Assembly: GCA_026413225.1 (NCBI GenBank)
Contig: JAPMTP010000094.1
Coordinates: forward strand, 62,001-126,000
DNA length: 64,000 nucleotides
Direction of reading: 5' to 3'
Source: Otis tarda
Lineage: Eukaryota > Chordata > Aves > Otidiformes > Otididae
The notes under the pieces were generated by a model, which searched no databases, was not told where the DNA came from, and saw only the letters and a list, made by a program, of their open reading frames with translations. Of this stretch, positions 2,301 through 51,935 are shown one piece after another. The position numbers and the translations under genes are program-made. The number at the start of each line of letters is the position of its first letter. Position 1 is the first letter of the stretch.

Positions 2301-2331
2301 GATTGGAGTGGCCTGAGTCGCCGCTGGCAAC
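2301..2331 (+). promoter_or_regulatory. Candidate FHAD1 promoter elements (inverted CCAAT box and X-box-like palindrome), copy A
   Basis: GATTGG at 2301-2306 is an inverted CCAAT box. At 2317-2331 GTCGCCGCTGGCAAC resembles the RFX X-box, with half sites GTCGCC and GGCAAC. A non-coding 5' exon appears to end at 2629 (CAG|GTGAGT) and the ATG exon starts at 2725 after TTGCAG, so these motifs sit where a core promoter would be. FHAD1 is known as a gene of ciliated cells and testis, where RFX factors act. The assignment is inference from motif and position. Confidence 0.4.
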
Positions 2332-2741
2332 CTAGAACCACAACGGAACGTCTGCGTTGCCATGGTTCTGTTCCGCGCCCGGCTGTGTCAGTTGGTGTGT
2401 GGCAGAGCTGCTGTTGGCACCCAACTTTGTCGTGTTGCTGGGCCAGTGGCCAGGCAAAAGGAGAAGTTTTGGCGTTTTGTTTTCTTCCAAACCCCAGCGA
2501 GAGGAGCACCCAGGAGGGCATCAGCGAGGGCTGACGCGGCTGGGATTTCCAAGGCTGCAGCGAGGTGGCAGCCACGCTGCCGGCCGGGGCAGAGCCGCCC
2601 TTGGAGCGACGTTGTACCATCTCTAGCAGGTGAGTTGGTCAGCACGTTTGTGGCTGGGTTGCTGTGCGTCGGACGGGGGATTTACTAAATGGTAGTAGTT
2701 GTTCTTTGTAACGTAAGCCTTGCAGGTGAAGGGGCTGGAGG

Positions 2742-5700
2742 ATGCCGGCCTTTCTAAAGAGTTCGGAGGCGTGTTATCAGCTGAAAGCGCCCAGGACGAC
2801 CATAGGCAGGCACGAAGGGTGCGACATCGTCCTGCAGGTAGGGACGGGGAAGCCAGCCGTGGTCAAACGGGCGGTGGTTTGGGTGCAGGGAGGTGGGTGC
2901 GCTGGGGTCCTTCGTGCCAGGCGTAGGGGCTGCCAGCTTGCTTAGGCAGAGACGTGCGGCAGGGGGAGAGAGGGGCGGGAGGGCTTGGCAAATCACTCCC
3001 CAAACCTGACCTGCCCGCTGATTGCCCGTGCCAGACTGCAGGCGTAGCAGATCGTCACGCGGCCCTCGAATTCAGCGCTGCCATCAACGGCTTTGTCCTT
3101 ACGGACTTCAACTCCCGCTGTGGTACCTTTGTCAACGGCTGCCAGATCCAAAACGTGTCCGTGAAAGTGAATGCAGGCGATATCCTGCGCTTCGGAGCAG
3201 CGGGCACGTCCTTTGAGCTGGTGGTGAGTGCTGCTCCCCAGGGAAGGGTGAGATGGGGCTCCCCGGGGAAGGGTGGGCGACGCGGGGCAGCCAGGCTGTG
3301 CTCTGGGGCCAAGCTGGTCTGGGTGATCCTGGGGCAAGGCGAGGTGCGGAGGCTGGAAAGCTTGAGCTCCCTCCGCTGAAGAAAGCGGAGCAGGTCCGTA
3401 GGGAAAAGGAGAAGCCCGGGGCAGGTTTCCCAAGAGCAAGTTGGAGGCGGTGAGCAAGGTAGGGGTGGGAAATGTCCTTTTCCTCGACGTGCGTGTTACT
3501 GTTCCGCAAAAGCTAATGACCCTGGGAGAAGTTTGCTGTCGGATCAAACCTAGAGCAAACCGAAAGGTGCAGGCCTGAGCGGCGCTGTGCTCAGCGGCAG
3601 CGTGCGTGGCTGGCGCTACCGTGGTGTTCTGCACAGCGCAGCCGGGGCATCGCAGTCAGCTTTGGAGCGGAATTAAAATTCAAAGGAAGTGTAAGCTGGG
3701 AAAGAATGTAGTCGAATGCAGTGGCAGTCTCCTGTTTCTGGTGGGGGGAAAATAAAAAAGGAAACCCAAACTGGTAAGGGCTGTTTTTGGAGGTCGTGGA
3801 GCTTTTGGGTTATTTTATAGGTAAGGATTGATAAAGTGCAGTGTTATTTGCATTGCAAATGCATTCTCCTGAGGAATCCTAGGGCATAGATGCGGAGGCA
3901 GAGTCCCGGAAGCGCGTGTGTGGCAGGAGGTGCAGAGCCTGGTCTCTTGGCAGAGCCTGTGTACGAGGAGAACTTTGTTGGAGTCAGACAGTTTGTGCCC
4001 CCAGATACTGGGTTTGGTGGTCTCAGCAAGATTGCTGGTGTGGCAAGCTGAGCTGGGGAGTCCAAAGTTGTCTAGAAAGCCATGACCAAGGGGAGGGAAA
4101 AAAAAAAAAAAGCCCACTTGCACCATGAAGCTGGAGCAGCTGATGTAGGAGACCATGAAGGTGGCTCGTCGGTGCCGTCTGGGGAAGCTCTGCTTGTCGG
4201 GAGGATAGCGGAGAGTGTCCGAATTACGTGTGTGACAGCCCCGGCGCAGGGGGCGGTGATTGCCATGGCAAGGCAGGAGTGCAGTGAGAGGCTTTGGGTC
4301 GGCTCGCTGCACGGGAGAAGTGAGAGGGTGGGGCCACCTGCGTGGGAGCCGGGAGAGGCGGGAAACGAGGGTGTTCGGATAGTGCCGACGACGTGCAGAA
4401 ATAGGGCGGTCGAATGGAGAGAGAGGGGAGAGCTGGAAAAGCATCAAAACCCAAGGATTTTTTTTTTTTTTATTTTGGCCAAAGATGGGGGAGTCTGGAT
4501 TTAAATGTGATCCTTGGGGAACGGAAAGGGGAGAGGACTCAAAGTCCGCCTGCGCTGAGGTCTGTGCCTGGGGTTTGTAGGACATAACGCACGCGGCCCA
4601 AGGGCTAAGGAGGTGCCTGAAGTCTTGCTGCTATTGCGGTCTTTTTTCCCCTCACAGGTGTCCTGTACCCCCGTGGGACGTGGCACAGCATGGAACAGGC
4701 AGCTCAGGGTGGCTTCAAAGGCCGAACTCTCAAAGTTTGTGCCTCATCCGCCCCTCTCCTCGCCGTGGGGGCGGCACGCCCCCGCCTCTTCCAGCAGCCG
4801 GACTCCCGGCACGACCAGCCGCGTGCCCCGTCCGCCGTCACCGAAGCGATCTGGGAGTCCTCGGCCTAAGGGCGTGACCAGCTGCATCCCGCTGGACACT
4901 TTGAGCAGGACCTCCGCCGTGAGGCCAGGTACTCCCCGATGCCGAAGCGGGTGGTTGGTAGCCTGGTGTCCCCTGTGAGGGCCTTGGCCTGGAGCGGAGC
5001 GGATCCGAGCAGAGGCAGTTTTGAGAAGGGCCGCGCCTCGGCAGCAGTGGGCTGTGAGTCCTGGTCCAGTGGAGCTGGCGGGGGGTCGTGTGCAGTGCCG
5101 GGTGGCATGTGGGTCAGTTAAGAAATGGGTTGGATGTCCCAAGGGCAATGCCGTTGCCCTGGTAGCCGAGAGGGACGTTTCCTCTTCCTTTTTCCCTGTG
5201 TGTGATCGGGAAGGGCAAAGTGATGGTTTTTCCTCCTTGGAAGCGCGGTTACTGGCTGCCTTGAGTGCAGAAACCTGAAAGGAGGGTTGTAGCGAACACG
5301 CCTCTGGAAATTCTGCGTGCAATAGCGATGAAGCAGAGGCAGGGGCTTGGAGGAATGGTCCAGCTGGAAAACAAGACTGTTGCCGTGAATGTAGCTTGGT
5401 ACGGCCCGACTCTCAGTCTGGGGCTTTTCCTGCCCTGAGATTTGGGTGGATGGAGCTGGCCGAAGCCGTACGAAGTCAACAGTGAGGCAGCAAAGGAGAG
5501 CTGGTGCAATGGGGAAGTATCACCGGAGCCCTGGTCTGCGGTGTCTCCGCTGCCCTTGAGGCTCGTTGGGGTCCCAGCGGTGTGTTGTTTCTCTCTGGTG
5601 TGCCGATGTTTGCACTGGTTTCTTGTTAGTGCCGAGGAGTTGGTGTCTGTTGTGGTTGTGAGGCGAGCTCGTGGTCTGTAAAGTAGCCGCTGCCTTGGAG

Positions 5701-8700
5701 TAGGTTTGAGGCGAGTGAGCGGGACGCGGCGTGCAGCCGGTTCCCGTGCTGACGTTTGCTGCCGTGGGGTGTGCTTTTTTCCAGTCCTGACCAACATCCC
5801 AGGCAGCAGTGCAACCGGTGCAGAGGAAACCGCTTTCCTGGGGATTCAGGAAGGGGATATCATCCCGCAGGAGAAGGTGAGGTGGGGGAAGGTGTGAGGG
5901 GCACCGTCCCTGTCCCCGTCCTGGGCAGAGCAGGCGAGCCCCGCCAAAAGATTTTGGCTCTGGACAGCCACCCCAGCAGGGTGCAGGGACCGTCAGCGAA
6001 GGGGAGTTCTCCTGGGGATGGGGGTGGGCAGAGTGAATGGCTGTGGATTTGCAGCAATGGAAAAGCTGCCTGGGGCCCCCGGGGCTGCAGGTGGGGGTCA
6101 CCACACCTGCCAGCCTCGACCTGGCCGAGCATCCTCCCCGAGCAGCGCTCTGGAGAAGAGCTGTGCTGCAAATCAGCCCGTTAACCGGTGGGAAAGCTTG
6201 ATGTGGACGAGCTTGAGCTGCCATGCGCGGGAGGGGGACCAGGCTTCCCAGTGACACATCCTGCTGGGTGGCTGGTGGCACTTGTCCCGCAGCACTCATT
6301 TCAAGGCAGAGAGTGCGTCCCCGAGCTTCCCTGGGTGGGTTTCCTCCGCTCCGTGGATGCGGGAAGAGCCGGAGGGAGGCAGGAGCTGGTGCGAGGCGCT
6401 CGGGTGGGACTCTGAATCCCCGATACCCTGGAGCGCAGAGCTGAAAGGCACAGTCTGATACAGCGACGAGTATCCTGGAGATGTCTGTCGCCATCACGGT
6501 CGGGTGGCTGTGGATGTTTGTAGTTTGCGATTGTTGCCTTGGATCCTTTCCCCCCATCCCTGTCGTAGTCTTTCCGATGCCGGAGGAGTTTAGCTCTGTC
6601 ACTGGGTACTCCCTGCAGGTGTTTGTCCTTCCCTCAGCCAGGCAATTCCTTAAAAAGGGGCATTTCCAGGTGCGGGCACTCTCGTGGTCACTGTGCCTTG
6701 TCGGCCCCATGGCGGGCACTCCATCATCGGAGTACGTAGCAGGGCTGGGGCACCAAAGTACGGGTTGAGACAGTTGCTGCAGGAATGACGGTATCTGCCT
6801 GCCCTGACGTCTTTTTTTTCCTTCTTGGGCACCGTTCATTCTAGTGCTCTAGAATTAGAGAGGAAGTGAAGCAGGAGCTCGGAGAGCAAGAATTGACTCC
6901 GTGCCGAAATGTGAGTCGCAAAGCGTTCAGGGCGATGGAGCGCGCGGGCGAGCAGCGAGCATGGGAATGCATCGTTGAGAGAAAAAGCGACCAGGCATTT
7001 TGAGGGAGGTGCTTTGCCTCCGACTCCTGTAATAGAAGGCGCATAATGTGCAGAGGGAGACGGAGGAATGTAAGCTCTGGTAGAAATCATAGAATCATAG
7101 AATCATAGAATGGTTAGAGTTGGAAGGGACCTTCAAAGGTCATCTAGTCCAACCCCCCTGCAAGAAGCAGGGACATCCCTGACTAGATCAGGTTACTCAG
7201 AGCCTCATCCAGCCTTGCCTTGAACATTTCCAGGGATGGGGCATCCACCACCTCTCTGGGCAACCTGTTCCAGTGCTCTACAACTCTCATTGTAAAAAAT
7301 TTTTTTCTAATATCTAATCTAAACCTACCTCCTTCTAATTTAAACCCATTACCCCTTGTCCTATCACAACAGGCCCTACTGAACAGCCTCTCCCCATCTT
7401 TCCTGTAGGCCCCCTTGAGGTATTGGAAGACCGCTATCAGGTCTCCCCGGAGCCTCCTCTTCTCCAGGCTGAACAGCCCCAACTCTCTCAGCCTGTCCTC
7501 ATACGAGAGGTGCTCCAGCCCTCTGATCATCTTTGTGGCCCTCCTCTGGACCCTTTCCAACTGGTCCATGTCCTTCTTGTGTTGGGGGCTCCAGAACTGG
7601 ACACAGTACTCCAGGTGGGGTCTCACCAGGGCAGAGTAGAGGGGCAGAATCCCCTCCCTCGACCTGCTGGCCACGCTCCTCTTGATGCAGCCCAGGATGC
7701 TTTGGCCTTCTGGGCCGCAAGGGCGCATTGCCGGCTCATGTTGAGGTTCTTGTCCACCAGCACTCCCAAGTCCTTCTCCTCAGGGCTGCTCTCAATGCAT
7801 TCCCCGCCCAGCCTGTATTTGTGCCTGGGATTGCCCCGACCCAGGTGCAGGACCTTGCACTTGGCCTGGTTGAACTTCATGAGGTTGGCACAGGCCCACC
7901 TCTCCAGCCTGTCCAGGTCCCTCTGGATGGCATCCCTCCCTTCCAGCGAGTCGACGGCACCACACAGCTCGGTGTCATTGGTGAACTTGCTGAGGGTGCA
8001 CTCTATCCCACTGTCCATATCGCCAACAAAGATCGTAACAAAATCGTAACAGCGCACTGCATTGCAGGAGAATGGTGTCTGAAATAAGAGTGCAAACCAC
8101 TCGAAAACCAATCTGACCGCAGGAAACGTTGAGAGGAAGAAGCTCTGGGCTAAAGGAAATGGGCCAGATGGGGAAAATGTCGGGCTTGGTGGGAGAAACC
8201 CTCTGGAGAGGCGGTGCCGAGCTCCTCTGGTGAGAGCCTGCGCTGTCCCGGGACTCTTGCAGCGCATCAAGGAGCTGGAAGGCGACGTGGAGCGGCTGCA
8301 GGGGGAGGTGCAGAAGTATCGCGCGGAACAGAAGACCATGCGAGGGCAGCTGGCCGAGAAAGCCAAGGTGAGGGTCCGGCTGTGGGGTACGCAGCGGAGG
8401 GCAGGGAGGGATGGGCACGAGATAGTCTGGGTAGAAGGGCTTCTGGCACGTTTGACCGGTCTGGCTTTGATGTGCAAATGCTCTTGGCTTGCAGGCTGAG
8501 AAGACGCTGAAACAATACCGCGCCAGGCAAGCTCTGCGGCTGAAGGCCGTGGGGCGCAAGGAGGAGGTGCTGAGATCCAACCTGGAGCAGGCCAAGGAGC
8601 AGGTAGGGCAGCGGTGGGCATGGGGCAGGACCCTGCGGATCCACGGTCCGGGCTGGAGGCAGCTGCAGGACGCGTGTTCCCAAGGGGAAGGTAAGGTCAT

Positions 8701-9043
8701 TGTGCCTGAGCGCAGGAGCCTCGGAGTCGGAGGAGGAAGGCGCCAGGACAGCCTTTGCCTTGGTATGTAGAGGGCTGGGTCGAGCAGAGCTGCTGTCAGT
8801 TTTCAGTGATTTGTGTCTTCCCGTCTTCCCGTCTTCCCCTCCTGCTGGAAGAGCAGCTGGAGACCGTTGTGCAGGAGAAAGAGTCGGAGAAGTGGCTACT
8901 GCAGGAGGAAATAGCGGAATATGAAGAGCAAAGCAGGCAGCAATCGGAGACAATTTTGGCTCTAGAGGAGAAGATGCTGGAGGCCAAGAAACAGCAGAAG
9001 ACGCTGGAGGAGGAAGTTGCCACGCTCAAGGGAAAAATGGAAG
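2742..9043 (+). pseudogene. FHAD1: FHAD1-like gene, copy A, internally deleted and 3'-truncated
   Basis: Exons matching copy B: 2742-2837 (ATG), 3035-3223, 4658-4928, 5785-5876, 6845-6910, 8263-8367, 8495-8602, and a remnant of the exon ending at 9043. The first two encode a complete forkhead-associated domain (TTIGRHEGCDIVLQ, then DFNSRCGTFVNG), a phosphothreonine-peptide binding fold; the rest is coiled coil. The exons equivalent to B exons 5-7 are absent, but their total length is 480 nt, so exon 4 to exon 8 still joins in phase. Exons 11-17 are gone, and the deletion end lies inside exon 18, removing its splice acceptor. Nothing downstream of 9210 continues the gene until an orphan exon at 27247. 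It could still make a truncated FHA protein, but I read it as a decaying duplicate. Confidence 0.85.
7089..8040 (-). mobile_element. CR1 LINE, 5'-truncated, inserted in a copy A intron
   Basis: The plus strand starts with three ATCATAGA-type units, the reverse complement of the CR1 3' tail, so the element reads on the minus strand. It encodes the C-terminal half of CR1 reverse transcriptase: the end at 7183-7728 ([20 protein letters not shown]) and, in another frame, the part upstream to about 8025 ([20 protein letters not shown]). There is a frameshift near 7690-7740, and the catalytic FADD motif reads FTND. AAATC flanks it at 7084-7088 and 8041-8045, a possible short target duplication. Copy B has an empty site at about 38191. 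Confidence 0.95.
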
Positions 9044-9210
9044 GTAGCTAAGGGTTGTGCAGGGCGAGTGGGTGTGGGGACCACCTGAGGTGCCGTGAAA
9101 CACGCTTAGAGATGGAGGAGTGCCGTGATGGGGAAAGGGTAGTGTGAGAGGGTGGTCAGAGGCTTGCCCGCATGCGAGGCGAGCTCTCAGAGCCCCCAAA
9201 GTGGCCGTTT

Positions 9211-9956
9211 GAGAGATTATAAAGCCTCAACATCAACACCTTATGTTCTGATAGCCCAGCAAATGTGGGAATTTATTCATAGACATAAACTGTTCTCTCC
9301 TGGAACATCCAGGGCCACTGAAAACAACCACAAACATCCCAATTCTACTCTGTCACAAATTATTCCAAGACTTCCAGGGACAGAACACAACCGGGCAAGA
9401 GGAAGTCCTCAGGTATTCTGCCTCTGCTCTCTAAGTATCAAAAACAGGAAATCTGTGCTACAGTGTCGTGTTCTTAAATAACCAGCCATCAAACCAGGAA
9501 GGTAACTGTAGCCAATCTGTAGATCCCTGCTGTCACGAACAGGCACCAGATACAGAACTGAGTTTCTAAGAAAGAACAGTGATGGCCTAGACACTGTGAA
9601 GGGCAAGTGTACTTAGCGCAAAAAGATCAGTCACCTGACCATATTTAGCCATGGCAGCGCCAAAAATACCAAATGTGTTACATCTGCTGTATGGACTGAA
9701 AACAGGAGTAGAAATGTCACCTGACAGCAGTTCCTAGGATCTGGTGTGATTTAGGAGTCCTGTGACAAAAGTACTGTCCCAGCAGGCTTAAAAATGTCCG
9801 TCTGCTTTGGGACATCAAACCTACCCCATCACAACAAAAATTAACAGCAGCTTTAACAGGAAAGAGAAATCTGAATGCCTCTGTACGCCAATATCCAGGA
9901 AAAAGTGAACAGACTGAACCCGCTACCAAAGAATACAATGCTTTAGGGACACTCAC
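9211..9956. other. Intron 2 sequence of the RBBP6-like fragment, starting at a breakpoint
   Basis: From 9217 on the sequence matches the last 110 bases of the window (63891-64000), which lie in intron 2 of the minus-strand RBBP6-like gene. The FHAD1 similarity ends at 9210, with GA shared by both sides. No exon was seen here. Confidence 0.8.
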
Positions 9957-12939
9957 GGGACAGAGGTTTTCCTGGGAGCTTTAACTCCTCCAGCAGGGAT
10001 TCGTCTAACAATTACTGAGCAGTTCCTCGGAATCAAGGCATCATCATCTGTGTATTCTGAAAGCAATACAGAAAGAAAAAATCAGTCAGTTTGTATGAAT
10101 GTACATTAATATGCAATTCCGTAGCATTCAGAGGATCCCTGTACAGATTGAAATGCCAAATGTTATATGTAAGATCCCTCTTTTATCCTCTCAACACACT
10201 AACAGGACATCTCAAGAAATCTGCAGGTTTGAGAATCAAACACAAGCAGCGATTTCTGTTTGATTCTTTCAAAAGAGTTTGAATGCCAACAGCAACATGG
10301 TCTGAAAGGTCACTAAAGGAGAGTCTGCCAGTGCATGAGGTTCTTTCCTGATCTAGCTGAAGTTGCTTTTGCCCATTTGCCTTTGTCCGTTTTGCCTTCC
10401 TAGCGTCTTAACACGAGTCCATCATACCATTTTTCCCACTGGCTCTTAAAACCCCGCTTGCTTTGAGCTTACGTTAGCATTGCTTCTGTCACTAGGTTGC
10501 CATTATGGAAAGCAACAGTGACTGAGCTGGAAAGGGTTCGAGTTCTCTGAACAAGCAGGCCATCTTCACTCAAGTGTCACTTTGCTCTTTCCGAGATCGT
10601 TTCCACATTTAGTCAGGACTCCTGCACAGACACAGTGACACAAAAACCATACTCGATGTCCACATGTAAGAGCTCCAAACATCCCATTTAGGCAGAAGAT
10701 CCTGGTCTAGTTTTTCCCTTCCTCTTCTGAAGGTGAGTTTAGGCATCTGCAGTGATTAAGAAAACCTGAAAGTCACCATTATGCACACAGACCAACAGTT
10801 TGGCACACAGACCTGCTACTGAAATGTATTCCCTAGCTTGGCTCTGAAAACCACTGGGGGATTTTTGCGTTTTCCCATGGAAAACACCCTTACGAAAGCT
10901 TCCGGAAGCATCTGTGTCACTAATAGACCAACTTTAACATTTGACACTCATGCAACACACCCTGCCTAGAGGAGGATCTTGCCGCTGTTAAACAGCAGGG
11001 ATGCTCTGTGAAGTACGAAGCAGAGTCCTCCTTCAACTTCACCCTTAGGCAGCACCACACTTAACAGAACCCAGTGAAGCAGAGACTTTTTCTTCTCTGC
11101 AGGCTGATCACGTACAAAAACAAGGCAACACACCTTGGACAACTGGTGCGATGTCTGTTGGAGGAACCCTTGATGGGGTAACATACTGATGAGCATCAAC
11201 TTTTCTCCTAAAACTTGACCTTCTATTCCTCACCTGCTATAACAGAATCTACCTCTTTGCCCCATTTCAAAACATTTCTTCTTTTGGAGCGCATCATTGG
11301 GCTCCGTCGCGGGCTGTGAGCATCCAACATTCTGGTTTTAAGGCTCCGTTTGAGACAGACCCAGCTGTTACAGGAGTGGTGTCAGCCAGCTGGCCATTCA
11401 GCCTGCTCGCGTTTGTGAAGCTGAAAGTACCGTAGCAAATAAAGACAAAATTCAGAGACCCTTCTGCAGAAAAGCCCTTAAAGCAAAACAAACATTTTTC
11501 AAAAGCTCTTGACAGTTTTATTCAACACCACAGAAAAAACAAAGCCTTCTGAAATGTATCTCCACCTACATATGTCACGGCATCCTATGGCCTCCTGAGA
11601 CCCCTAACACTGTGCTGTTGAGTCTCCTCACAGACATTCTCCTGAAAATGGTTTCACTGTCTGTCGATACACAGCGAGCTTTAGGTCCAACCACTGTAAA
11701 GGCTGGGGCTGAAGTTACACTTCCCGCAGCGAACATACGATTCTGTTTAAGTTTAAACACAAAAATCAGGAAGAGGAAAAAAACGGTAGAACACATTCTA
11801 AAGAAAAGACTGTTGTAAGGGTGCCAGAGAACTAAAGGAAAAAAATAATGTTTAAAAAGTGAAAACAATATACAAGTCTCATTCTTTCTGAAAAGTCCCA
11901 TCCCAAAGTCTCCAATCACATTCAACCTCCTCAAGATGGCAGATCACCAAACGGAAACATCATACTAAGTAATACAAACCCATTATCAGCTCCAAGAATC
12001 AAGCACCACTGAGCAGATTTAAATGAATTTATGACTTCTCTAAGAACCCTTCTTGCTTATATTCACCATAAATGTTCTGCCACAAAACTTCAGTACCGGC
12101 CTGACACCGTTAACGTGCAGTATCAGGGAAAAAAACCACCCACAGTTAGAAATGAATGACGAACTGATGCTCAATAGCATCTGCGTGGCAGTGTCCCTGG
12201 TGTACAGCAGCAGTTCTATTAACAAGAAATGCCAAAATGTCCTTCAGAGGCACCGAACACTCAAGTGCACGATGGCTTTAAGGGCTCTGCTGAGATTCCA
12301 ACTCACAGCTGCACTCTTGGCCCAAAATGTTGCTGGGGAGCAGTTTCTGCAACAGCCACAGAACCAGTTTTCCAGTGCCGCGGCGTACAAGAAGTTGAAG
12401 GCAAAGTTAAGTGACCAGACCCGCTGTTTTTCTTCAAGTCAGCCACCTGTTCCATTGCCATCCCTTTCAGCTTTCTCCAGCAGATTTCAAAGAAATCTGG
12501 CAAGCCTGTTCTTATCAGATATCCTCCCACATTTCCGTATCATTTTCCCTGAAGAATTCCCGGAAAGCAAAACCTTAGTGAGCTCTCCGCGTTGCACGTG
12601 AAGCGCGGGCACTTGTAGCCTGGCTGTGTGGCTAAAACACAGCTCTGGCGGTGGTTGTCAGAAGAGCCGCGAGGAAGGAACAGCTCTGTGGGGCTCCCAG
12701 CACCAGTCCCAGCTACGGACGGAGGGCGAATCCCATTGTCGCTTCCCACCCCGCGCCCGCCGCCCCCACGCACCTTCTTTGGTCTGGGCGTTGGTGATCT
12801 GCAGGTCGCTGTTGGGCGCCTTCAGCTTCTCCCGGGCCATGATCTGGCGCTTGAGGTCGCGCAGGGAGATGTGGAGGCCGTTGAAGATGAGCGTGTGGTA
12901 CTTGAGGCTGGAGGAGAACTTATAGTGCAGGCAGGACAT
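9957..12939 (-). pseudogene. RBBP6-like gene, 5' fragment (DWNN domain, exons 1-2)
   Basis: Exon 1 is 12939-12774, starting at the ATG and encoding MSCLHYKFSSSLKYHTLIF through to DLQITNAQTKE. Exon 2 is 10056-9957 and encodes EYTDDDALIPRNCSVIVRRI and the following residues. Together they give about 88 residues covering the whole DWNN domain, the ubiquitin-like fold found only in RBBP6-family E3 ligases. Splice sites are G|GTGCGT, TTTCAG|AA and CC|GTGAGT. Exon 2 ends two bases into a codon, and the right-hand gene's exon 3 (63812) starts with exactly the one base needed. Here, however, intron 2 runs into FHAD1 DNA at 9210, so the downstream exons are missing. A short DWNN-only product is possible, as with the human short isoform, but no alternative terminal exon was found. 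Confidence 0.9.
10057..12773. other. Intron 1 of the RBBP6-like fragment; nothing else recognised
   Basis: This is AT-richer than its surroundings, with no recognised repeat or exon on either strand. A plus-strand open frame at 12053-12601 has no recognised similarity. The interval is bounded by good splice sites of the minus-strand gene. Confidence 0.6.
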
Positions 12940-13313
12940 GGTGAGGGCAAGGCGGTGTGTCCTCGGCAGCGGCGCCTACCGCAGCACACGGGGTGGTGGG
13001 CTCTGCTCTGAGCTGGGGCCCGCAGCCCCGGCTCGGCCTCCGCTCCCTGTCTGGCACACAGCGCTGCCAGGCCGGTGTGTTTGGTGGCTACGGCGACTGC
13101 GGTGCCCCGGCCTCAGCGTTCCGCCAGGGCTTTAGGGGCACCAAGCAGAGGGGCTGGGCCAGCGGTGGTTCTAGGCCACGTTCCGTTGCCCCGACAAGAG
13201 GTTGCCTGGCGCCACGAGCGGAAGCAAACAGAACAGTCCGGCCACGCCCGGTCACCTGTCTGCTCGCCGTGCAGCCAGGGCCACTGGACTGGATCATCCT
13301 GACCGGGAGGAAG
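12940..13313. promoter_or_regulatory. Shared bidirectional promoter interval, RBBP6-like (minus) / USP36-like (plus)
   Basis: Only 374 bases separate the two divergent start codons. The interval is GC- and CpG-rich, as expected of a CpG-island promoter. There is no stop in the USP36 frame upstream to 12957, so a longer USP36-like N-terminus cannot be excluded. Transcription start sites are not visible from sequence. Confidence 0.55.
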
Positions 13314-16300
13314 ATGGAGGAGGCGCTGAAGCTGGGCCACAGGGAGGCGGGCGAGGAGGGGGAGCTGGGTGGGCTGCTGGCTGCCTCGTTGGAGAAGGCG
13401 CTGCGGCAGGAGATGGAGTTGGAGCCCACCAGCCGCGGCTCCTCCTGCCCGTGGGAGCGGCTGCGGGGCAAGTACCCGCTGCTCGGCCCCCAGGCTGAGG
13501 CCGCTGAGGGCCAGCACTGCCCCGAGGAGGGGCTGCCCGGCAAGCAGGGTAGGCAGAGAGGGCGAGGGGGAGCCTCCCCGCGCTCGCAGCCCTGCGGCTC
13601 ACCGCCCCTCTCCCCGCAGGCAGCGGCCGTGAGTCGGGGAGCGTGGGAGATGGCATCCCCGCACCCCAGAAGGTGCTCTTCCCTGCGGAGCGCCTCTCCA
13701 TGAAGTGGGAGCAGAGGTACCCAGTCGGCGCCGGGCTGCACAACATGGGGAACACCTGCTTCCTCAACTCCGGCCTGCAGTGCCTGACCCACACGCCGCC
13801 GCTCGCCAACTACCTGCTCTCCGGGGAGCACAGCCAGACCTGTGAGTGGGGAGGCCCGGCTCGGCGGGCGGCAGGGGAGGAGGAGCGCCCGCCTGTCCTG
13901 CTCCCGGCGCCGCGCTCAGCACCTCTGTGCGTGGCTCTGGCCAGGGCCGTGCGGGTGTCGGGATGCGCCTGCTCTGCTCCCTCCTGCCTGTTTCTCCGTC
14001 CAGAGGTCATCCTTGTGTCCGGGGAGGCTTTGTCTCTGCTGGGCGTAGCCAGGACTGAGATGGGTGCAAGGGGGTCTGCTGGCTTCCTGGGGGCTGAGCT
14101 GGGGGTCCCACACAGCCCCTGCCTGCGGGGAGCGCGTGAGGGCAGGGCCCAAGGCTGCGTGCAGGCAGCAGCTGCTGTTGCTGGGGGGCTTTGAAAGGGA
14201 GTCCAGCGGGCACCGCTCCCAGCTGTGCCCAAGGGGAGCACGCGGGGCTCGCAGCCCTGTGCGTAGGGCTCTGCTGGGATCTGCCCCTCAGGGCCGAGCG
14301 CTGGGCTCCTCCAGCGCGTCCCTGTGACCTGTTTTCTGTCCACGTGGACAGTGTCTCGTCTGGGGGGTTGCGCTGGCTGGTACTGTGACTCGGGCTGCGC
14401 CAGCTGGGGTGGCGTGTGCTGGTCCCTGTGCCCCCGGGATGCCCCCGAGCTGCACCGGAGCACAGAGCTCCTAGGGAAAACTGAGCGCGACTGAGCTGTG
14501 TTGGACCGGAGGTCCCCCGCCACCTGTCCTGCCTCCATCTCTCCTCAGTTTGTCCCGACGTCCTGTCTTCTCTCCTGCTGCAGGCCAGCGAAGAGGCTTT
14601 TGCATGCTGTGTGTTATGGAGAAGCACACGATCCAGGCTTTTTCCAGCAGCGGCACAGCAATAAAGCCAGTGTCTGTCATCCAGAGCCTCAAGCGTAAGG
14701 ATGGCTGCCCTTCCCTCCCCTCCCGTCGCCGTGCAGGAGCGCGGTGCCTAAGGCGGGAGCAGAATCTTTGAGATCGGGGCGGGTCTTGGCAGATGGCTCT
14801 TCTGAGGTGACTCACGGAGCCTGCCGGGGGCTGCGTGGAGCTTCCCCCGTGGCCGGCATGAGTCTGTCGTCTGGTTTGGGTTGAGGGGGCTCAGACCCCG
14901 AGTCCCTGCCCCGAGGGAGGGAGGGAGGGCCAGCATCTGTTGCAGCACGTGCTGGGGCTGATTCCTCCCTCTCCTGCAGGGATTGCCCAGTACATCCAGT
15001 TCGGCATGCAGGGGGACGCGCACTACTTCTTGCGTTGCACCCTTGATGCCATACAGAAAGCCTGCCTGAATGGCTCTAGCAGGTATGTGGGGCCTCTGAC
15101 GGCCCACGGCTGCTCTTCTGCGCTGCCCCCTCGCTGGTCCCCTGCGCCCGTGGGAGGGGACGGTGGGGTGAGCGTGTCCCCCAGTTGGGACTCCTAGAGG
15201 GAGGTGCTGCCTCCAGGGGCCTGGGGTGCATGGCCCCACTCTGCCCCTCTGTGACACAGCTCTGGGCTGTTGTCTGCCTTCTCCCTTCTCCTGACCCCTC
15301 TGCCCCAGCACAGCTGCGCTCCTGTCCCCAAATGCTGAGGCTGCTACAGGTTTGGATGCTGTCCCAGCGGTTGAGGAATGCAGGCGTGCTTGCTAGGGCA
15401 GCCCCAGCTCTGTGGCTGCGGGAGAGCAGCTTTCCCCTGGGCCCTCTGTCCCGGGCAGCCTGCGTGGCCTCTGTGTGCAGCGCCCAGCTCTGAGCTGCGG
15501 CCAGGAGTTTCTGCTCCTTCTAGAGGAAGGTGCGCGTGGGAGCCCGGTGTCACCCTGTGAGCCCCGGCACTGGGAGGGCAGCCTGGCAGAGGCTGCGACT
15601 TCCCTCTGCTCCCGCAGCTCTGCAGCCCCTTGGCTGGCCGGAGCGCGCAGGGGAGCTGCCCTGAGCAGACAGCGGCGGCCGGCGGGGGTGGCCGTTGTGG
15701 AGGGGTGGTGCGTGATCTGGTGCTGCTGTCTCTAGGTTGGATCGCCAGACCCAGGCCACGACGCTGGTTCACCGGATCTTTGGCGGCTACCTGCGGTCCC
15801 GTGGTGAGTGCTGGCCGCCAGGTCCTGGGCCTGTGACTCTCAGCGCTGCTGCTTCCCTGACAGCCTTGCAGTACAAATCTTTGGGAAGATTGCTGAGCTG
15901 TGCAAATTCCCCACAGCTGGGTGTCTGCAGTTGCTCATTCTTGCGGCACCTGTGGGTGGTGGCCCCTGTGGCGGCCACGGAAAAGGCTGTTGGCTGCGGG
16001 TCCCCGGCTCGCTGCCACCAGCAAAGGAGCCTGTGTTGCCAGCTTTCCAGCAGCACTTGCTGTCCCAGCGCACCGTGGAATTGCCAGCCTTCCTCCTTGC
16101 CAGGCTGTGAATCGCGGTGCTGCCATCCCAGAGCCCACACCCGCAGAGCAGGAATACTGCAGCTGCCTGCGCTGCGCTGGGCTGGTGGCGGGTGCAGGTG
16201 TGGTGCCAGGCTGTGCTCACTCCTCTGTCTGTCGCAGTGAAGTGCTCGCTGTGCAAGGGCGTCTCGGACACCTATGACCCGTACCTGGACCTGACGCTGG

Positions 16301-19300
16301 AGATCGAGGTAGTGCGGCAGGGTCGGGGGCGGGGAGGAGCTCTGCTCTCGCGGGGATGTTCCTGCAGCTGCCCCGTGCCTGCTCTCAAGGCTCCTTCACC
16401 TGCCAGTGCCAAGGCACGCTGCAGGCCAGGGGGAAGCAGCTTCCGTTGTTGCGCTGCCTTCTGTGCTGGGCAGAGCAGCGCCCGTTGCCTGAGCGCGAGC
16501 CACGACTCCTCCGCCGGGGCTCTGTGGTGGTGAGGGGCCGTGGGCCGTCCCTCGCGGCATGCTGGCCAGCGGCTAGCTGGTGCCCGGCTCACAGGTTTGG
16601 TGCCATCCGTGGCCCCGTGCTCATGTTCTGGGTTCTGTCTTGGGGCCGGCGTCTCGGCAGGGAGCCGATCTGTCGTGTGGACACGCCGCTCGTGCCCTGA
16701 CCTCTCCTCTGTCCTTGCAGCAAGCCGCAAACCTCGAGCAGGCGCTGGAGCAGTTTGTGAGGCCAGCTGTGCTGGGCGAGGAGGACGACTACACGTGTGC
16801 CAAGTGAGTGTGTGGGGCTGCGGGCGGGAAGGGGCCCGCGGGTGTGCTGGTGGGAAGCAGGTGGAAAGCCTGCCGCTCTACGGGAGGGCTCCTCTACCTG
16901 CTCCATGGCCACACTGTGAGGTATGTGGCCACAGAAGCCTGCGATGAAGCCCGCCACTCCTCAGCTCCCTCCCCTCAGGAACGTGGGCCAGCAGACGTGG
17001 CCGTGAGCAGCTGCCCTGGAGCGGTGCTTGGTGTCGTCAGGGTCGTTTCCGTGGGGTTTGCCGCTTGGCCAGGGCTGGCAATCATCTGGGTGGTGGAACA
17101 GCTTGAATAGCTCCAGTTCTTCCTCTGCAGGTGCAAGCAGAAAGTGTCAGGAAGCGAAGGTGTCACCATCCACCGAGCCTCCAACATTCTCGTGCTCAAG
17201 CTGAAACGTGTTGCTGGTGGAGGCAAAATCACAAAGGTGAGTGCTTGGCAACGCCGATGAGGGGCTGTCTCCTGGCCCCAGGCCCCGCTGCCCAGAGCAG
17301 GGTGGGAGGGGGTCCTGTGCACAGCGTGAGCTCTGCTGCAGTCCTGCAGCCCCTCCCCAGCTGTGCGGTGCAGGGGGGGCTTGGCTCATCCCGGCATCTT
17401 CCTCAGCGTGACCTCTGCCTGTGGAGAGCGCGTCCCCCTCCCTCGAGCGATGGGACGCGTAGGACCGCTGAGCTGCTCTTGCTCTAGCAAGAAAGCCGTC
17501 TGCTGTGCAGGCTCCCAAGGCGTCCTCTCTCCGCAGAACGTGCCGTATCCCCAGCTCCTGAACGTCCGCCCTTACATGTCCCAGAAGAACGGGGATCCTG
17601 TTGTGTATGGGCTCTATGCCGTGCTGGTGCACGCTGGGATCAGCAGCCAGTCAGGGCACTACTACTGCCACGTGAAGGTGAGCCCGCGGCGCTCTCTTGG
17701 CTCCAGTCTGGGCTGGGGGCTGCTGGGGGGGGTGGGTCCCTGTGGGGCGCAGGAAGGAGGGTGCTCAGCAGATGGAGTGGTGTGGAGCACTGGGTGGGGG
17801 GTGCAGGCTGTGCTCTGCCACAGAAGCGTGGAGGTCTGCTCTCGCAGAGTCCCCTTGCCTGCCCTGGGCCGCCTGTGGGTTTTGGGGGGAGGAGGTCTGC
17901 TGGTGGGCGCTGTTCCTGCTGCTCTTCAGGCCAGGAGGGTCCCCGGACACAGCCCGACCCCCTTCTTTCTTCTCCTTCCGCAGGCCAGCAACGGGCAGTG
18001 GTACCAAATGGACGATGACCTGGTCCGCCCCAGCAACATCTCAGTGGTCCTGGCCCAGCAGGCCTACCTGCTGTTCTACCGGAGGTGAGAGCGCCCGGAG
18101 TCTCCCGGCCCCTGTCCCCTGCTCTCAGCATCTGGGACAGGGCTGGTAGCACGTGCCTGCCTGTTGGAAGGAGCTGGGCCCACGTAGCCCCATGCCCGTG
18201 CGCACGCGCTGGCTGGGAGGAGGGTGGCAGGGAGAGGTCCAGCCCCATGCCATGACCTTGTGCAGGGCAAAAGCCCCTCACCTCCTCGGAGCTCCTGGCT
18301 CCTGTTGTTGCGTGCATCTCTGGCGAGAGCACTACGATCACGCAAACCCTCGCAGTTAATGCGTGCGCTGCTGTGCCTTTGCCAGAATCCCCAGCCCCAA
18401 GAAGAGCCCGGAGGGGCCCATGGCCAAAGCTGCCTCCGGCCGGCCTGGCCACACTGGCGCCGTCTGTGGTCGGGTCAGGAAAACGGTGTCTTCCCCGCCG
18501 CTGGGCCCGGTGAGTCCTGAGGGCTGCTCTCGGCCAGCGCTCCCGGGAGCTGGCAGCTGCTGCCCCCCTGTCTGCTCTGCGCGGGCGGGTGGGCTGCAAC
18601 TTGGCGGGGAGGCAGGCGCGCTGCTCCGAAGGGGCAGGCGCGAGGGAGGAGGGTTTGCAGGAGGGATCCTGTGTGGGCGTGGGGAGGGATGGGGAGGGCA
18701 GTGTGGCTCTGTGTCCTGGCTGCTCCAACTCTCTCCTCTCTGAACTTCTCTCTCTCTCTCTGTCTAGAGACCAGACGTGCTGCCGGGGAGGAAGCTGCCA
18801 GGGCTGGAGAAGGTGGGAGGCCCTGTGGCCCGCAGCACGTTCAGGACGGGGACGAAGCTGCCAAACAGCACTGCTCCGCTGAAGCGGCCCGCTGAGTCCC
18901 CATGGCCCAAACTGCCCCTCCCTGCTGGCCCCGGCACCAGGCCAGCTGCACCCCGAAGTGCCCCCCCAGCAAATCTGAGTCGGTCCCTGTGGGCCAGCGC
19001 TGCTCTGGACCTGAGCAGCACCGCGTCACCACCACGGGCCAAGAAGCCGGCACTCTCTGCCAAAAAGGTGAGCCTGAGCTTCTGCCCGCAGACTTTAGCA
19101 GGCACCTCGTGCCTTCGGAGCTGGGGCTTGTGTCGGGGGCGAGCGTGGAGCCAGCACTGGGGATCTTGCGAAGGCGGCGGTGGGTGGGGAGAGCCCCCCA
19201 GCCCCAGGGCTGTGGCAGTGTCTCTGCCCTCCGTCTGGGTCGGGGCGCGGGGCCGGGCCCCCACTGTTGCTCACATCCCTGAGTGCTGCAGGAGAAATCG

Positions 19301-19381
19301 GTCCTGCCCTCTCGCTCAGGATGGAGGGGCGGCTCTGCCAGTCTCTCCGGCGGGGCGGCCTCGCCGGCCGTCGCGGGGTAG
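13314..19381 (+). CDS. USP36-like ubiquitin carboxyl-terminal hydrolase
   Basis: Thirteen exons join in phase into 584 codons plus stop: 13314-13548, 13620-13841, 14584-14694, 14980-15082, 15736-15803, 16238-16308, 16721-16803, 17131-17236, 17537-17677, 17984-18084, 18386-18509, 18768-19067, 19292-19381. The peptidase C19 (USP) fold is complete. The Cys box is [12 protein letters not shown] (nucleophile near residue 125), zinc-binding pairs are CSLC and CAKC, and the His box is SGHYYCHV followed by [12 protein letters not shown]. The N-terminus ([18 protein letters not shown]), [11 protein letters not shown] after the fold and [10 protein letters not shown] all match USP36 rather than USP42. 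Family members cleave ubiquitin from substrates; USP36 acts in the nucleolus. Two differences stand out. The QEDAHEF motif reads MQGDAHYF, and the protein is about half the length of human USP36, lacking the basic C-terminal region. The start was chosen by alignment with USP36 and a good Kozak context. The last exon (stop TAG) is the least certain. Confidence 0.88.
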
Positions 19382-19786: not shown

Positions 19787-20078
19787 CTTGAGCTTGTGGA
19801 CTGCTCGCTGGACTGGACAGAGGAAAAAAGTCGAGTCAAAACATCAAGACAGAGCCTTCTCCACAGCTTCCAACGTTACAACAGTGAAATATCAAAACCG
19901 TACAGGTATTTGCTTCGTACTAGACATTTTGTACGCTGTTGGACAATTAGAGCTCCATGCTCTCCATTCAAGACCACATTCACCCATTAATCAGAGATGT
20001 CTTTTTATCATTGATTAGAACTCTCAAAATGTCCTTGCTTGGGCTAAAGTCTGTGTTGATGATTCTAATTCTTCACAG

Positions 20079-22262
20079 GCATTAGAACAGCACTGCTGGA
20101 ATCTGAGGAGCACACCTGCCCAACGTGTCACCAGACAGATGTTTCTCCGGATGCATTAGTTGCCAACAGGTTCCTACGCCAGGTAACGTGATGACTTTTC
20201 CGTAAACTGATTGTCAGAAAAGGCTACTTGCAAACAGCTGGCAGGGAAGGAAGCATTCGCTGACACGGCCTTAAGCAGGGCTGGATTGCATACGGCTCAG
20301 TTTCCTGCTCAAGTACATGATCTGCTGTTACAGAAGCTCACAACGCTGTGGAGGCCATGGGGCAAATTCAGGTCCCGCTGTTGTTTAACAGGATTGCCTC
20401 CCTTTCAAGTTTGGTGTTAACAGTGGAGTCCTTCAAAGACAGAGACTCTGCGTTGCCAGTCATTGATACCGGTGTTTAATGCCATCTGTTCACACCTCTG
20501 TGTGTCGATTTATTGTAGGACTGATAGCACGGGCAGGAATACACAAGGGGTTGTACCCTGTGGAGGCTTTTCTTCGTACATCTCCTGAAGTTTCCTGTCA
20601 CCTCTTTGTAAATGTTTCTCTGCCTCTAGGCTGTGAACAGCTTCAGCAATGGAACTGGCTACACAAAAAGGCGCTGTGCGCAGATTCGGGAGCCGCAGCA
20701 GCAGCCGCCGCCACTGCCACCACCTCCACCACCACTCCTGGCTGTTACCCCTCCTGCTGCTCTGGTGAGTGCTGCTGAACTCGCTACATCTTCCTCGCTG
20801 TCCGTCGGCAGTGTGTTGGAAGAGAAGCTCAGTTTTACGTCAACACAAGCAGCGAGTCTTGTATTTCAGTAGAGCTTATTTTGCAACTCTTGCATGTATT
20901 CACAAGGGCTGTCAGGCTCCTGTACTGAGACAGCCAGCACTGCCGAGTCTGCTGGGCCCCCCAGGACAGCCCATCCCCACAGCTGGTAAGTGACAAGAAC
21001 TTCAGAATTTCTTAAATAAAAAAATCTTCAGATAAACTGAGTGGGATTCTTTTTCCCTTTTCCCTCTCCCCACTCCAAAAGGTCACCCCATGAGAGCCAC
21101 TGCAGTTCGCTCCTCAGGTGCCAGACCGGGCTGGGAACGGTAAGTGTTCTACAGAAATGCAGTAGGTGACTACTTGTCACCTGTTAAATGAGGCCGTAAC
21201 ACATCACTTATACAGCAGCTGATTTATAATGGAATACGTATGCGCAGAGAGCTGTGGAAAATACAGGTGGTAATTAATTTTTATATGGTTTAATAGAAGC
21301 GTTACGATATGATTTTGCTTGAAATGCGATCGCTGTCCTTGGTCAGAGCGAGAGGTATGTGCCAGATTTTGCTGGGACACCTGGCTAGAAGTGTTGATCA
21401 AATAGCCCTGTATGTAGGATTGCAGGACAAGTATTTTTCACCCCGTTCCAATCACCACCGAGGTATGAAGCTAAGTAGACTAAGCTGGCCTTTTAGAGTT
21501 GAGCTTTACTGTCTCCAGGCTAAATCACGTTTTCTTGGTGTTTGTTACTGCCCTGTAGCCGTCAGGACTTGCTCTTTTTCTATCTTACTGCAACACAACT
21601 GATTTGCACTGGATGTAGTTGTGGAGCAGTGAAAAATGTGCACGTTCACATACCAGTAGCGGCCAGTATGCACCAGTTTAAATCAACGGTCGTTCATGGG
21701 ACAGACCATACATACACTGACCCTTCCTGTTTGCTTTTCCACTGACAAAGCAGCAGTTGTGGAGAGGTAAAGAAACCAAACCAAATTTGGGAGGTAAAGA
21801 ACTGGGGAGAGTGACTGTTTTGAATTAACATCATCTATTTTTTGTGTGTGCTGTGGATTTTTAAGATCCAAGTCTCCTCATAGTGCTTCATCTTACTCTT
21901 CCAGCTACTCCAATTCAAGATCAAGTTCCTCCCGCACTAACTCCTCCTCTCGATCACTTAGCCGTTCCCGTTCCCGTTCCTACCTGCGATCATCACCTCA
22001 TCCAAGAAGAGGCAAAGGGAAGAGCCGTAACTCTCGTTCCAGGTCAAGGTCACGTGGCTCTCACCATTCCAGACCAAGGTCACCCCCCTACAGAAGATAC
22101 CGTTCACGATCGAGGTCCCCAGGGTTTAGAGGTCGGACTCCCACTGAACGGACTGTACCTGAAGGGGGACGAGAGCGGGGGAACGTTAACAGATACAGAG
22201 GTGTTCCACCATATCACAGGAAGGCTTATGAAAGAAGGAGTAGCCATGACAGAACAACATGA
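20079..22262 (+). pseudogene. RBBP6-like gene, 3' fragment (second half of RING to RS domain)
   Basis: Exons 20079-20182, 20630-20764, 20916-20985, 21082-21139 and 21866-22262 join in phase. They encode the second half of the RING finger (HTCPTCHQTDVSPDALVANR), a proline-rich stretch (PPPLPPPPPPLLAV), a short segment like the RPGWE region of RBBP6, and an arginine/serine-rich tail (SRSRSRSYLR, PPYRRYRSRSRSP) ending at TGA. All splice sites are canonical. The first half of the RING and everything before it are absent: similarity to the complete gene starts at 19787, inside the intron before exon 20079. The fragment lies on the same strand as, and just downstream of, the USP36-like gene. ATTAAA at 22483-22488 could be its polyadenylation signal. 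Confidence 0.88.
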
Positions 22263-22579
22263 TGGAGGAGGGGAAAGACTATGCAAGAGGAGGAGGCCGT
22301 TTGATTAGAGTATGTCTAAAATGCCATATTTTAATTTTGTTCTATTCCTAGTAAATTTTTGCAGGTTTTGGATGTTTTTTGTAAACCGTTTCAGTTCAAA
22401 CAAATTAGTCATGTAGCAGTAAACATTTCTGTTAATGTTAATGGAACTGGATTACGTTACTGTGTATATGAAATAACCATTTATTAAAATCTTAAAAGTA
22501 GTTTTTTCCTTCTGTAAATGAATGCATATGAAAACGAAATCACGAGTGGTTGATCTGAGCGACAGGGGCTTGAAGGACC

Positions 22580-23217
22580 AAATAACTGACAGTCACTCCC
22601 TTAGACCCTGCTGGGGTCTGGACCAGTGTGTCATAAAAACATCTGAACAATTCTACTTAACAAAAAAAACCACAACTGCCTTCAGTAATGTGTTCTGCAT
22701 AAGGCTGATGTTACAATTTGTATGTTGAAAGGACACAGTCAGCTGGAACAAAAACCTGCAGGTTGTGCTAACTGTCATTACATCACTTAATGTGAAGTCG
22801 TTAGTAGCGGGGGAACGCGCAGTTTGGCCTGCCTACAGCACACGGTGGCCAGGTTTCTATGGAAAGGAGTATTTTGTCCTGACAAGGGATTATAAAAAAC
22901 CTGATTCCTTTTAAAGCTTCTGTGTCTGAGACTGAATTCCAGCAAGCAAAATTAATCTCCCAGCTCCCAACCTGTGTGTCCTTTTATTGCTGTAAAATGA
23001 AATCATGACACTTGCATCTGTCTGTCTCAATTCAAGGTACAGTGGATATCTTCTCCTTCAAATAGTCTGCAGCTTAAATTCCAGTTTAAAAATGCTGGCG
23101 AGTATAAATTGTTCTACGCACAGCTTCCCTTTGAAGAAGGCTGGATGGGTCACACACTTCTGTACGTAAGGGGCAAACAGAGCCCAGGGTTCTGAGTGCC
23201 CCAGAGCGCTCTTTTCA
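22580..23217. repeat. Dispersed 0.6 kb repeat, copy 1
   Basis: It runs from near GTCACTCCCTTAGAC to AGAGCGCTCTTTTC. Inverted copies lie at 54596-55225 and 61137-61772. Read on the minus strand it has GCAATAAAAGGACACACAGG, a possible polyadenylation signal, and read on the plus strand a TATAAAA. It may be an old LTR-type or other non-autonomous element, but I do not recognise the family. Confidence 0.75.
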
Positions 23218-23695
23218 CTGACACCCTGAGCACGATGTCAGATGGGATGGAACAGCCCTTGGGCTCAGTTGGGTAAATTAACCCCAGCTGTTAACTAACT
23301 ATCCCAGCTGGGTGCCCCAGCCATAGGGGCCACCAGCTCCAGTTCTCTGCCCAGCTCAGGTGAATATTGACTCTGTCCTAGCCAGAACCAGGACACCCAT
23401 CTGCGCTGCCGCACTGTGGCAGGATATTGCTGCCTGGCTGGAGAATCTGGTTGTAAAAGTCCGTCACGTAGATGCTCACGTACCCAAGAGTCGAGCCACG
23501 GCAGAACACCAAAATGACCAAAGGGTGGATCAGGCTGCTACGATTAAACTTTCCCAAGTGGGCCTAGACTGGCAACACAGGGGTGAGCTATTTTTAGCTC
23601 GGTCGGCCCATGACGCCTCGGGCCATCAAGGAAGAGACGCAACATACAAATGGGCTCATGATCGAGGGGTGGACTCGACCATGTACACTATTGCA
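23218..23695 (+). mobile_element. Endogenous retrovirus fossil, rearranged 3'-region and pol fragment
   Basis: The first part (about 23218-23390) is the untranslated type of sequence found near the 3' end of avian endogenous retroviruses. The following part, from about 23390 to 23690, encodes the junction of RNase H and integrase, recognisable by VRHVDAHVPKSRATAEHQND. It is a broken remnant with parts out of their usual order and no complete gene, flanked by no recognised LTR pair. It is probably old. Confidence 0.8.
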
Positions 23696-23699
23696 CAGG

Positions 23700-23880
23700 T
23701 TATTTTTTTTTTTAGAATACAACAAAATAGTGTATTTAAGTTGGAAGGGACCTACAACGATCATCTGGTCAAACTGCCTGACCAGTTCAGGGCTGACCAC
23801 GTTAAAGCTCGTTAATACGGACAACTGCCCAAGTGCCTCTTAAACACTGACAGGCTTGGGGCATCGACTTCTCACGGCCA
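23700..23880 (-). mobile_element. CR1 LINE 3' fragment
   Basis: GTTGGAAGGGACCTACAACG and then ATCATCTGGTC, followed by CCTCTTAAACACTGACAGGC, is the reverse complement of a CR1 3' end. It is diverged and short, with no coding capacity, and it abuts the retroviral fossil. Confidence 0.75.
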
Positions 23881-51159: not shown

Positions 51160-51935
51160 TCCATCCGGGCAGGAGGGACCCCCAGGACCCCCGACCTTAG
51201 GGGAAGTACCCCCAGCCCCCTCCCAGTTCCTAGCAGGAGGGATCCCCCCCGTTTCCTGCAGGAAAGACCCTCAGGCTTCTTGTAGAAGGGACCCCCATAT
51301 TTTGCAGGAGGGACCCCCAGGACCCCCCCAGCTGAAGGGACCCCGCTATTTCTTGCAGGACGACCCCCAGGTCCTCCCCAGTTCCTTGCAGGAGAGACCC
51401 CCCCCATTCCTTGCAGGAACGACTTGGGGGATCCCCCACAGCTCCTTGCAGGAGGGACCCCGTCACTTTTTGCAGGAAGGACCCCCAGCACCTCCCCAGC
51501 TCCTTGCAGGAGGTCCCCCCTCCCATTTCTAGCAGGAAGAATCCCCCCATTCCTTGCAGAAAGGACCTGCAGGACCCTCCCCAGCTCCTTGCAGGAGAGA
51601 CTCCCCCATATTTTGCAGAAGGACCCCCAGATCCCCCCCAGGCTCCCTGCAGGAGGGAACCCCCATATCTAGCAGGAGGCACCCCCCATTCTTTGTAGGA
51701 AGGACCCCCGGGATCTCTCCAGCTCCTTGCAAGGGGGACCCCCTAAATCTTTGCAGGAGGGGTCCCCCGCAGGCTCCTTGCAGCCCCTTCCCCCCTTCTG
51801 TGCAGGGGGACCCCCCTAGGACTCCCCCAGCTCCTTGCAGGAGGCTTCCCCACCACCCCAGCCTTTTGCAGGAGGGATGGCTGGGACACCCCCCCACCCA
51901 GGCTCCTTGCGGGAGGGATCCCCTGGCACGCGGAG
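51160..51935. repeat. C-rich minisatellite in the first EFHD2 intron
   Basis: Units of about 30-35 bases and their doubles have the form CCAGCTCCTTGCAGGAGGGACCCCC with variants. More than 20 units are visible between 51170 and 51930. Strand bias is strong (C and pyrimidine on plus), so it may form non-B structure and be unstable or hard to assemble. Confidence 0.88.

Follow-up and report, generated by a model that had tools for sequence, protein, structure and literature searches.

Do two genes that face away from each other in the genome of the great bustard, Otis tarda, encode opposing ubiquitin activities under a shared promoter, as an original prediction made from the DNA alone had proposed? 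The stretch concerned (hereafter the window) comprises 64,000 nucleotides of contig JAPMTP010000094.1 (assembly GCA_026413225.1, positions 62,001 to 126,000) and contains one gene resembling USP36, a deubiquitinase, and one first exon resembling that of RBBP6. The reading that we moderately favour, judging from sequence comparisons, is that the pair belongs to a segmental-duplication (ampliconic) unit of the bustard lineage, which would combine an RBBP6-like fragment reduced to its ubiquitin-like (UBL) domain with a ubiquitin-specific protease (USP) of altered specificity, and would not be an opposing pair of E3 ubiquitin ligase and deubiquitinase. The earlier observation was confirmed in part, and its interpretation was likewise supported in part.

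Two divergent starts

Splice-site and frame reading of the window gave the following positions.

12939, minus strand: RBBP6-like start codon
13314, plus strand: USP36-like start codon
12940-13313, 374 bases: gap between the two start codons and candidate bidirectional promoter, within the CpG-island-like block 12326-13375

The divergent starts were borne out at these positions, and their separation of 374 bases lies under the 1 kb used for divergent bidirectional pairs, measured here between start codons and not between transcription start sites. The limits of the region originally singled out (9957-19381) are real, 9957 being the final base of RBBP6-like exon 2 and 19381 the final base of the USP36-like stop codon. 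The gap had been described as CpG-rich, which holds (GC 0.70, ratio of observed to expected CpG 0.68) but is not distinctive: 21.7% of 341 equal-sized windows across the 64 kb reach the same ratio, so that the CpG content of the gap is nothing special here, and the block in which it lies is among 35 CpG-island-like blocks in the window. CpG richness was therefore rejected as a mark of the gap.

The RBBP6-like copy of the pair

The RBBP6-like member of the pair, here called the left copy, consists of the following parts.

12774-12939, minus strand: RBBP6-like exon 1, with donor GTGCGT; its translation matches human DWNN 2C7H
9957-10056, minus strand: RBBP6-like exon 2, which completes the DWNN (ubiquitin-like) domain
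9213: clean junction, seen from repeat matches, at which DNA of an FHA-domain gene (to 9212) is joined to RBBP6-like intron 2 (from 9214)

The DWNN domain of the left copy matched that of human RBBP6 (2C7H) with an E-value of 6.8e-38 and 64 of 81 residues identical, and scored above the gathering score of the Pfam DWNN model. Just these two exons precede the junction, which falls 74 bases short of the expected start of exon 3, and the zinc knuckle and the RING are absent from the copy; it has been reduced to exons 1-2 because FHA-gene DNA was joined to its intron 2. If the exon 2 donor is not used, the frame runs into a stop immediately, giving 89 amino acids that end in KTSVP, and an AATAAA lies past exon 2 at 9277 on the minus strand. 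With the DWNN domain only, the left copy cannot be a RING E3; a role as E3 ligase was ruled out, and the label of an RBBP6-like E3 that the original prediction had attached to these two exons was dropped.

The FHA-domain gene (Pfam FHA), which is GC-rich and which we take to be FHAD1, is itself directly duplicated (355-6029 and 28336-34011, 99.4% identical over 5.7 kb), with further duplicate blocks extending to 9212 and 42994. The segments 8838-9212 and 42620-42994 match as FHA-gene DNA, and beyond the junction 9214-9327 matches 63887-64000 (97.4% over 114 bases), while the 20,892 bases of the right-hand unit in between (42995-63886) have no counterpart in the left unit. This absence is read as a probable deletion, placed on the left because the exons of a right-hand RBBP6-like copy continue through that stretch; the left unit would then be a deletion derivative of the fuller right-hand unit. 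The paired module had been reported as seen, or closely inferred, in duplicate, which was not confirmed, a second pair being deduced from the 114 bases at the right edge of the window and not seen.

The left copy resembles RBBP6 isoform 3, which is limited to the DWNN/UBL domain and under which 2C7H is labelled, but it differs in being a gene that has lost its 3' part, not a transcript variant of a gene that is still whole. The available sections of PMC8887125 describe RBBP6 as an activator of mRNA 3'-end cleavage, in which residues 1-335 activate CPSF and a UBL-only isoform inhibits by competing. A UBL-only product of the left copy, if made, would mimic that human isoform in competing with full-length RBBP6 in mRNA 3'-end cleavage.

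The USP36-like gene

The second member of the pair extends from its start codon to the right limit of the region, with the following exons.

13314-19381, plus strand: USP36-like gene of 13 coding exons and 584 amino acids, in a single open frame, with 12 of 12 introns GT-AG
13314-13548, 13620-13841, 14584-14694, 14980-15082, 15736-15803, 16238-16308, 16721-16803, plus strand: exons 1-7
17131-17236, 17537-17677, 17984-18084, 18386-18509, 18768-19067, 19292-19381, plus strand: exons 8-13
14980-15082, plus strand: exon 4, carrying E207G, E211Y and Y215C (RY motif changed to RC)
17131-17236, plus strand: exon 8, carrying K313E and an altered blocking loop 1 (F331V, with N333 and F334 deleted)

Full-length human USP36 has about 1120 amino acids. 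The best PDB match of the shorter window protein was the human USP36 structure 8BS3 (E-value 1.4e-169), and its Pfam UCH domain (5.1e-54) lies above the gathering score. USP36 was its best match in the protein database too, and for this gene as for DWNN the match far exceeds what chance would give. For each query the best 120 protein matches were seen, out of 882 for the USP36-like protein, 209 for a longer RBBP6-like protein and 367 for DWNN, so that statements of absence are weak throughout. In an alignment with the 120 listed homologs the window protein is like USP36, a vertebrate nucleolar deubiquitinase and Fubi-eS30 processing enzyme, in its domain and in its catalytic Cys and His: C131, H382 and D399 are retained and N398 is replaced by D, and the Cys-His-Asp/Asn set of a USP catalytic domain is present. 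It differs in the substitutions of exons 4 and 8 and in F201I. From the set that binds ubiquitin or Fubi (F331, F334, N333, E207 and R214-Y215) only R214 has been retained.

The structures of USP36, as described in the available sections of PMC10611586, show the ubiquitin tail held by two phenylalanines of blocking loop 1 (F331 and F334) and by glutamates, E207 among them, and disruption of R214-Y215 there drastically lowers reactivity towards Fubi. We infer that E211 is another glutamate of USP36 that holds the ubiquitin tail. E207, E211 and F331 are each kept in 119 of the 120 listed homologs, the sole exception each time being a protein of another bustard, Chlamydotis macqueenii (P0001), which alone among them carries the same set of altered residues and retains it although the two catalytic domains otherwise show 16 differences.

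Judged from the alignment, the gene is intact: the USP36-like copy retains its catalytic residues, although several of those that recognise ubiquitin and Fubi are altered. Since contact residues have been lost though the catalytic ones remain, the product is USP36-derived and at most a candidate USP36-type enzyme. It is probably a USP with changed or weakened specificity, the likeliest change being loss of Fubi processing; this reading comes from the altered contact residues, not from an assay or a structural model. In the part of PMC8354635 that was available, USP36 releases Fubi from eS30 during ribosome maturation. A naturally occurring USP36 copy of this kind, catalytic residues retained but substrate channel changed, would offer a ready-made test case for the evolution of USP specificity.

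These structures bear directly on the reading first proposed, in which an E3 ligase and the deubiquitinase opposing it are co-expressed from one shared promoter. In its favour, the two starts diverge from CpG-rich DNA with 374 bases between them, and the fuller, RING-bearing right-hand RBBP6-like copy may have a USP36-like partner of its own past the window edge. The left copy, however, has neither zinc knuckle nor RING and encodes DWNN only, several residues with which the USP36-like protein would hold ubiquitin or Fubi are gone, and RBBP6 and USP36 are not known to oppose each other on any common substrate. The notion of opposing ubiquitin activities found no support and this reading is now very improbable; the USP36-like protein would not be the balancing partner of an E3.

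Relatives in bustards and other birds

The nearest protein relatives of the window genes are from birds, and Chlamydotis macqueenii ranks first among the matches listed for both the USP36-like protein and DWNN. Its USP36-like protein P0001 (91% identical across 93% of the query) and its RBBP6-like protein P0241 (96% identical across the entire DWNN query) lie on contigs identical in size (45,742,398 bases), so that the two families are seen to be linked on one contig in this species. P0241 joins exons 1-2 like those of the left copy to exons 3-4 like those of the right copy. P0001 continues into RBBP6-like exon 9 (97.8%), which gives the order USP36-like to RBBP6-like 3' that is also found in the window. 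No Chlamydotis row was present among the best 120 of the 209 matches to the longer RBBP6-like query.

Could the pair have been created by misjoined repeats? The window is built of near-identical repeats and such DNA is prone to misassembly, but the copies are not identical, differing by about 2% near the 9213 junction and by 2% in an RBBP6-like 3' repeat, and the bustard annotation has both families on a contig of equal size and in the same order, which is independent evidence only if the window comes from another assembly. An assembly artefact is regarded as extremely unlikely.

Human RBBP6 and USP36 are on different chromosomes, and the claim that their pairing here is derived gained support from the bird contigs. 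Thirteen bird rows among the matches listed bear the plain name USP36. Nine of them are on contigs above 10 Mb, seven of these contigs measuring 11.3-15.1 Mb and the others 21.5 and 95.4 Mb, whereas the nearest relative of the window gene is on the 45.7 Mb contig together with an RBBP6-like protein; the remaining four rows are on contigs below 2 Mb and are uninformative. Judged by eye, no second species with both families on equal-sized contigs was present among the matches listed.

Phylogenetic trees were inferred from hand-picked subsets, mainly of birds, comprising 47 of the 120 listed proteins for USP36 and 54 of 120 for RBBP6. In the USP36-like tree (48 rows) the window protein and P0001 form a pair on a long stem (support 100/100, stem 0.26), which is joined at 100/98 in a bustard clade by a second copy from Chlamydotis (P0007; contig of 40.7 Mb); separate clades comprise the pigeons (except the divergent P0012), the parrots, Leptosomus and cuckoo. 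The deep order of the RBBP6-like tree is not resolved and its bootstrap was unsettled, the window composite standing beside cormorant without strong support (94/89). The trees group copies mostly by bird order.

Paralogs named '-like' occur for both families in many birds, several species having them in more than one place: the Leptosomus USP36-like rows P0009, P0013, P0018 and P0021 are on four contigs of differing size, and the Pelecanus RBBP6-like rows P0121, P0123, P0135 and P0167 are on four contigs. Both families have thus apparently expanded in other birds, separately in each lineage. The sizes of protein clusters were rejected as copy numbers because clusters may pool species and isoforms; P0014, a cluster for peafowl USP36, comprises 54 members.

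Genes of the USP17-like group are short and mostly lack introns. The mammalian USP17/DUB3 arrays are a comparable case of multi-copy USP genes, there in tandem and in copy-number-variable DNA (PMC2874809, available sections), but the window gene derives from USP36, has retained its introns and has an RBBP6-like partner head to head. Nothing on a bird RBBP6/USP36 paralog pair was found in the open-access literature, subscription papers being mostly outside this scope, and the main text of the great bustard genome paper, as far as available, names neither gene (PMC10354230); the bird sequenced there was male.

Further RBBP6-like copies

Two further RBBP6-like segments lie in the window, a second copy to the right and a 3' fragment that follows the USP36-like gene in the same direction.

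55545-63812, minus strand: second RBBP6-like copy, exons 3-11 and RS exon, with canonical splice sites
63776-63812, 60842-60930, 60626-60722, 59648-59787, 58474-58640, minus strand: second-copy exons 3-7
57622-57725, 57040-57174, 56819-56897, 56666-56723, 55545-55929, minus strand: second-copy exons 8-11 and RS exon
19788-23216, plus strand: RBBP6-like 3' fragment with exons 8-11 and RS
20079-20182, 20630-20764, 20907-20985, 21082-21139, 21866-22262, plus strand: exons of the 3' fragment

Exons 1-2 of the second (right) copy would fall past the right window edge. Joined computationally, the left exons 1-2 and the right exons 3-11/RS give one open frame of 518 amino acids. The Pfam models zf-CCHC_2, zf-CCHC and U-box scored above their cut-off in the right copy and two C3HC4 RING models below theirs; its RING matched the RBBP6 RING 3ZTG with an E-value of 3.2e-46. 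P195 (in GIPRSF) and Y228 (in AEAYARG) are retained, their numbering set by what we take to be the human sequence, so that zinc knuckle, P195 and Y228, and RING, which belong to the RBBP6 1-335 core, are present; the DWNN domain of that core would be encoded by exons 1-2 past the edge. These two residues sense pre-mRNA and are needed for CPSF activation, according to the available sections of PMC8887125. A VCK-type tail ends 43 of the 120 listed DWNN-only proteins and would arise from read-through of exon 3, which is present in the right copy only; that exon could encode such a tail (AVCKNTLSHLFLHTALHS).

The 3' fragment and the corresponding part of the right copy (54595-58016) are 98.0% identical in inverted orientation. 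As a side observation, this 3.4-kb inverted repeat (19788-23216 plus, 54595-58016 minus) flanks about 31 kb and could promote inversion.

The position of the 3' fragment raises the possibility that the USP36-like exons splice into RBBP6-like 3' exons (19788 onward), yielding a chimera of USP domain and RBBP6 proline-rich tail. P0001 shows such a join, and an in-frame path exists in the window through a short exon 12 (ending at 18957), 19092-19183 and 20630-20764 (RBBP6-like exon 9). P0001 is, however, presumably a predicted model, the short exon 12 uses the donor GTGCCC, less usual than the GTGAGC of the 584-amino-acid model, and the rest of the P0001 tail is unmatched in the window at an E-value of 1e-4. 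We consider the chimera unlikely.

Weighing the favoured reading

Several observations weigh against a duplicated unit made up of a UBL-only fragment and a re-specified USP. (i) D43, a CPSF73-interface residue, is N in the left copy, as in 35 of the 120 listed DWNN proteins, and R74 is kept; the CPSF73-interface mutant of RBBP6 combines changes at D43 and R74 (PMC8887125, available sections). (ii) Y215 is absent in 13 and R214 in 7 of the 120 listed USP36 homologs, so the loss of RY is not unique, and ten named contact residues are retained (L194, I197, A198, Q206, D208, H210, R214, V253, L294 and Y300). (iii) Of 13 conserved contact positions 4 are changed, compared with 13 of the 152 conserved positions elsewhere (p 0.031), a modest enrichment; leaving out E211, which is unnamed in the available sections of PMC10611586, gives 3 of 12 compared with 14 of 153 (p 0.11). 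(iv) An AlphaFold2 model of P0001 (44 rows) had a mean predicted local distance difference test (pLDDT) score of 45.5, too poor for a fold test, and was not used. (v) The two bustard proteins could sit far apart on their contig, and divergent orientation is seen in the window only. (vi) The RBBP6-like 3' copies differ about equally in exon-like (9 of 760) and other DNA (35 of 2652), counts that are approximate since the exon limits used were off by up to 21 bases from the final exon model.

A serious rival is that the locus is duplication debris in which the left RBBP6-like exons are dead, constraint on the USP36-like gene has relaxed so that it drifts, and the head-to-head order is accidental, without joint function. 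Very recent rearranged copies surround the pair (99.4% identity in one of 5.7 kb, 98.0% in one of 3.4 kb), the left RBBP6-like gene is truncated, the RBBP6-like 3' copies show no visible constraint, and 17 of 165 otherwise conserved USP36 sites are changed in the window protein, a number exceeded among the 120 listed homologs by P0012 alone (22). Drift should bring frameshifts, however, whereas the USP36-like gene keeps 13 exons, all splice sites, its full frame and its catalytic residues, and the bustard relative P0001 has the same altered residues in an otherwise diverged catalytic domain. Debris is accordingly held to be possible though doubtful.

Under the favoured reading of a recently duplicated and rearranged bustard-lineage unit, copies of RBBP6 and USP36, both shortened, would have been brought to divergent positions 374 bases apart, where the CpG-rich promoter of the RBBP6-like gene adjoins the USP36-like exons and may serve them. 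A bolder extension, which we put forward as a long shot, is that bustards built a co-expressed pair by placing USP36 exons on a captured RBBP6-like promoter, with the USP re-targeted off ubiquitin and Fubi and the UBL-only partner damping 3'-end cleavage, and that the whole is an amplified germline conflict system to which the RBBP6-like and USP36-like paralogs of many other birds are parallel cases.

Repeats and minor features

Some further repeats were noted in the window. Three copies of a repeat some 630 bases long are present (22589-23216, 54588-55218 and 61142-61769), the third being 87-88% like the others. An inverted repeat of 84.6% identity (7094-7281 and 46267-46454) lies in what we presume to be remains of a CR1 long interspersed nuclear element, and a stork RBBP6-like protein (P0225) gave a weak match to 7564-7725, near its left arm. 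The open frame 23327-23815 looks like remains of a retroviral pol gene, with no Pfam match at an E-value of 0.001. A C-rich imperfect minisatellite, whose units measure about 23-143 bases, occupies 51285-51768.

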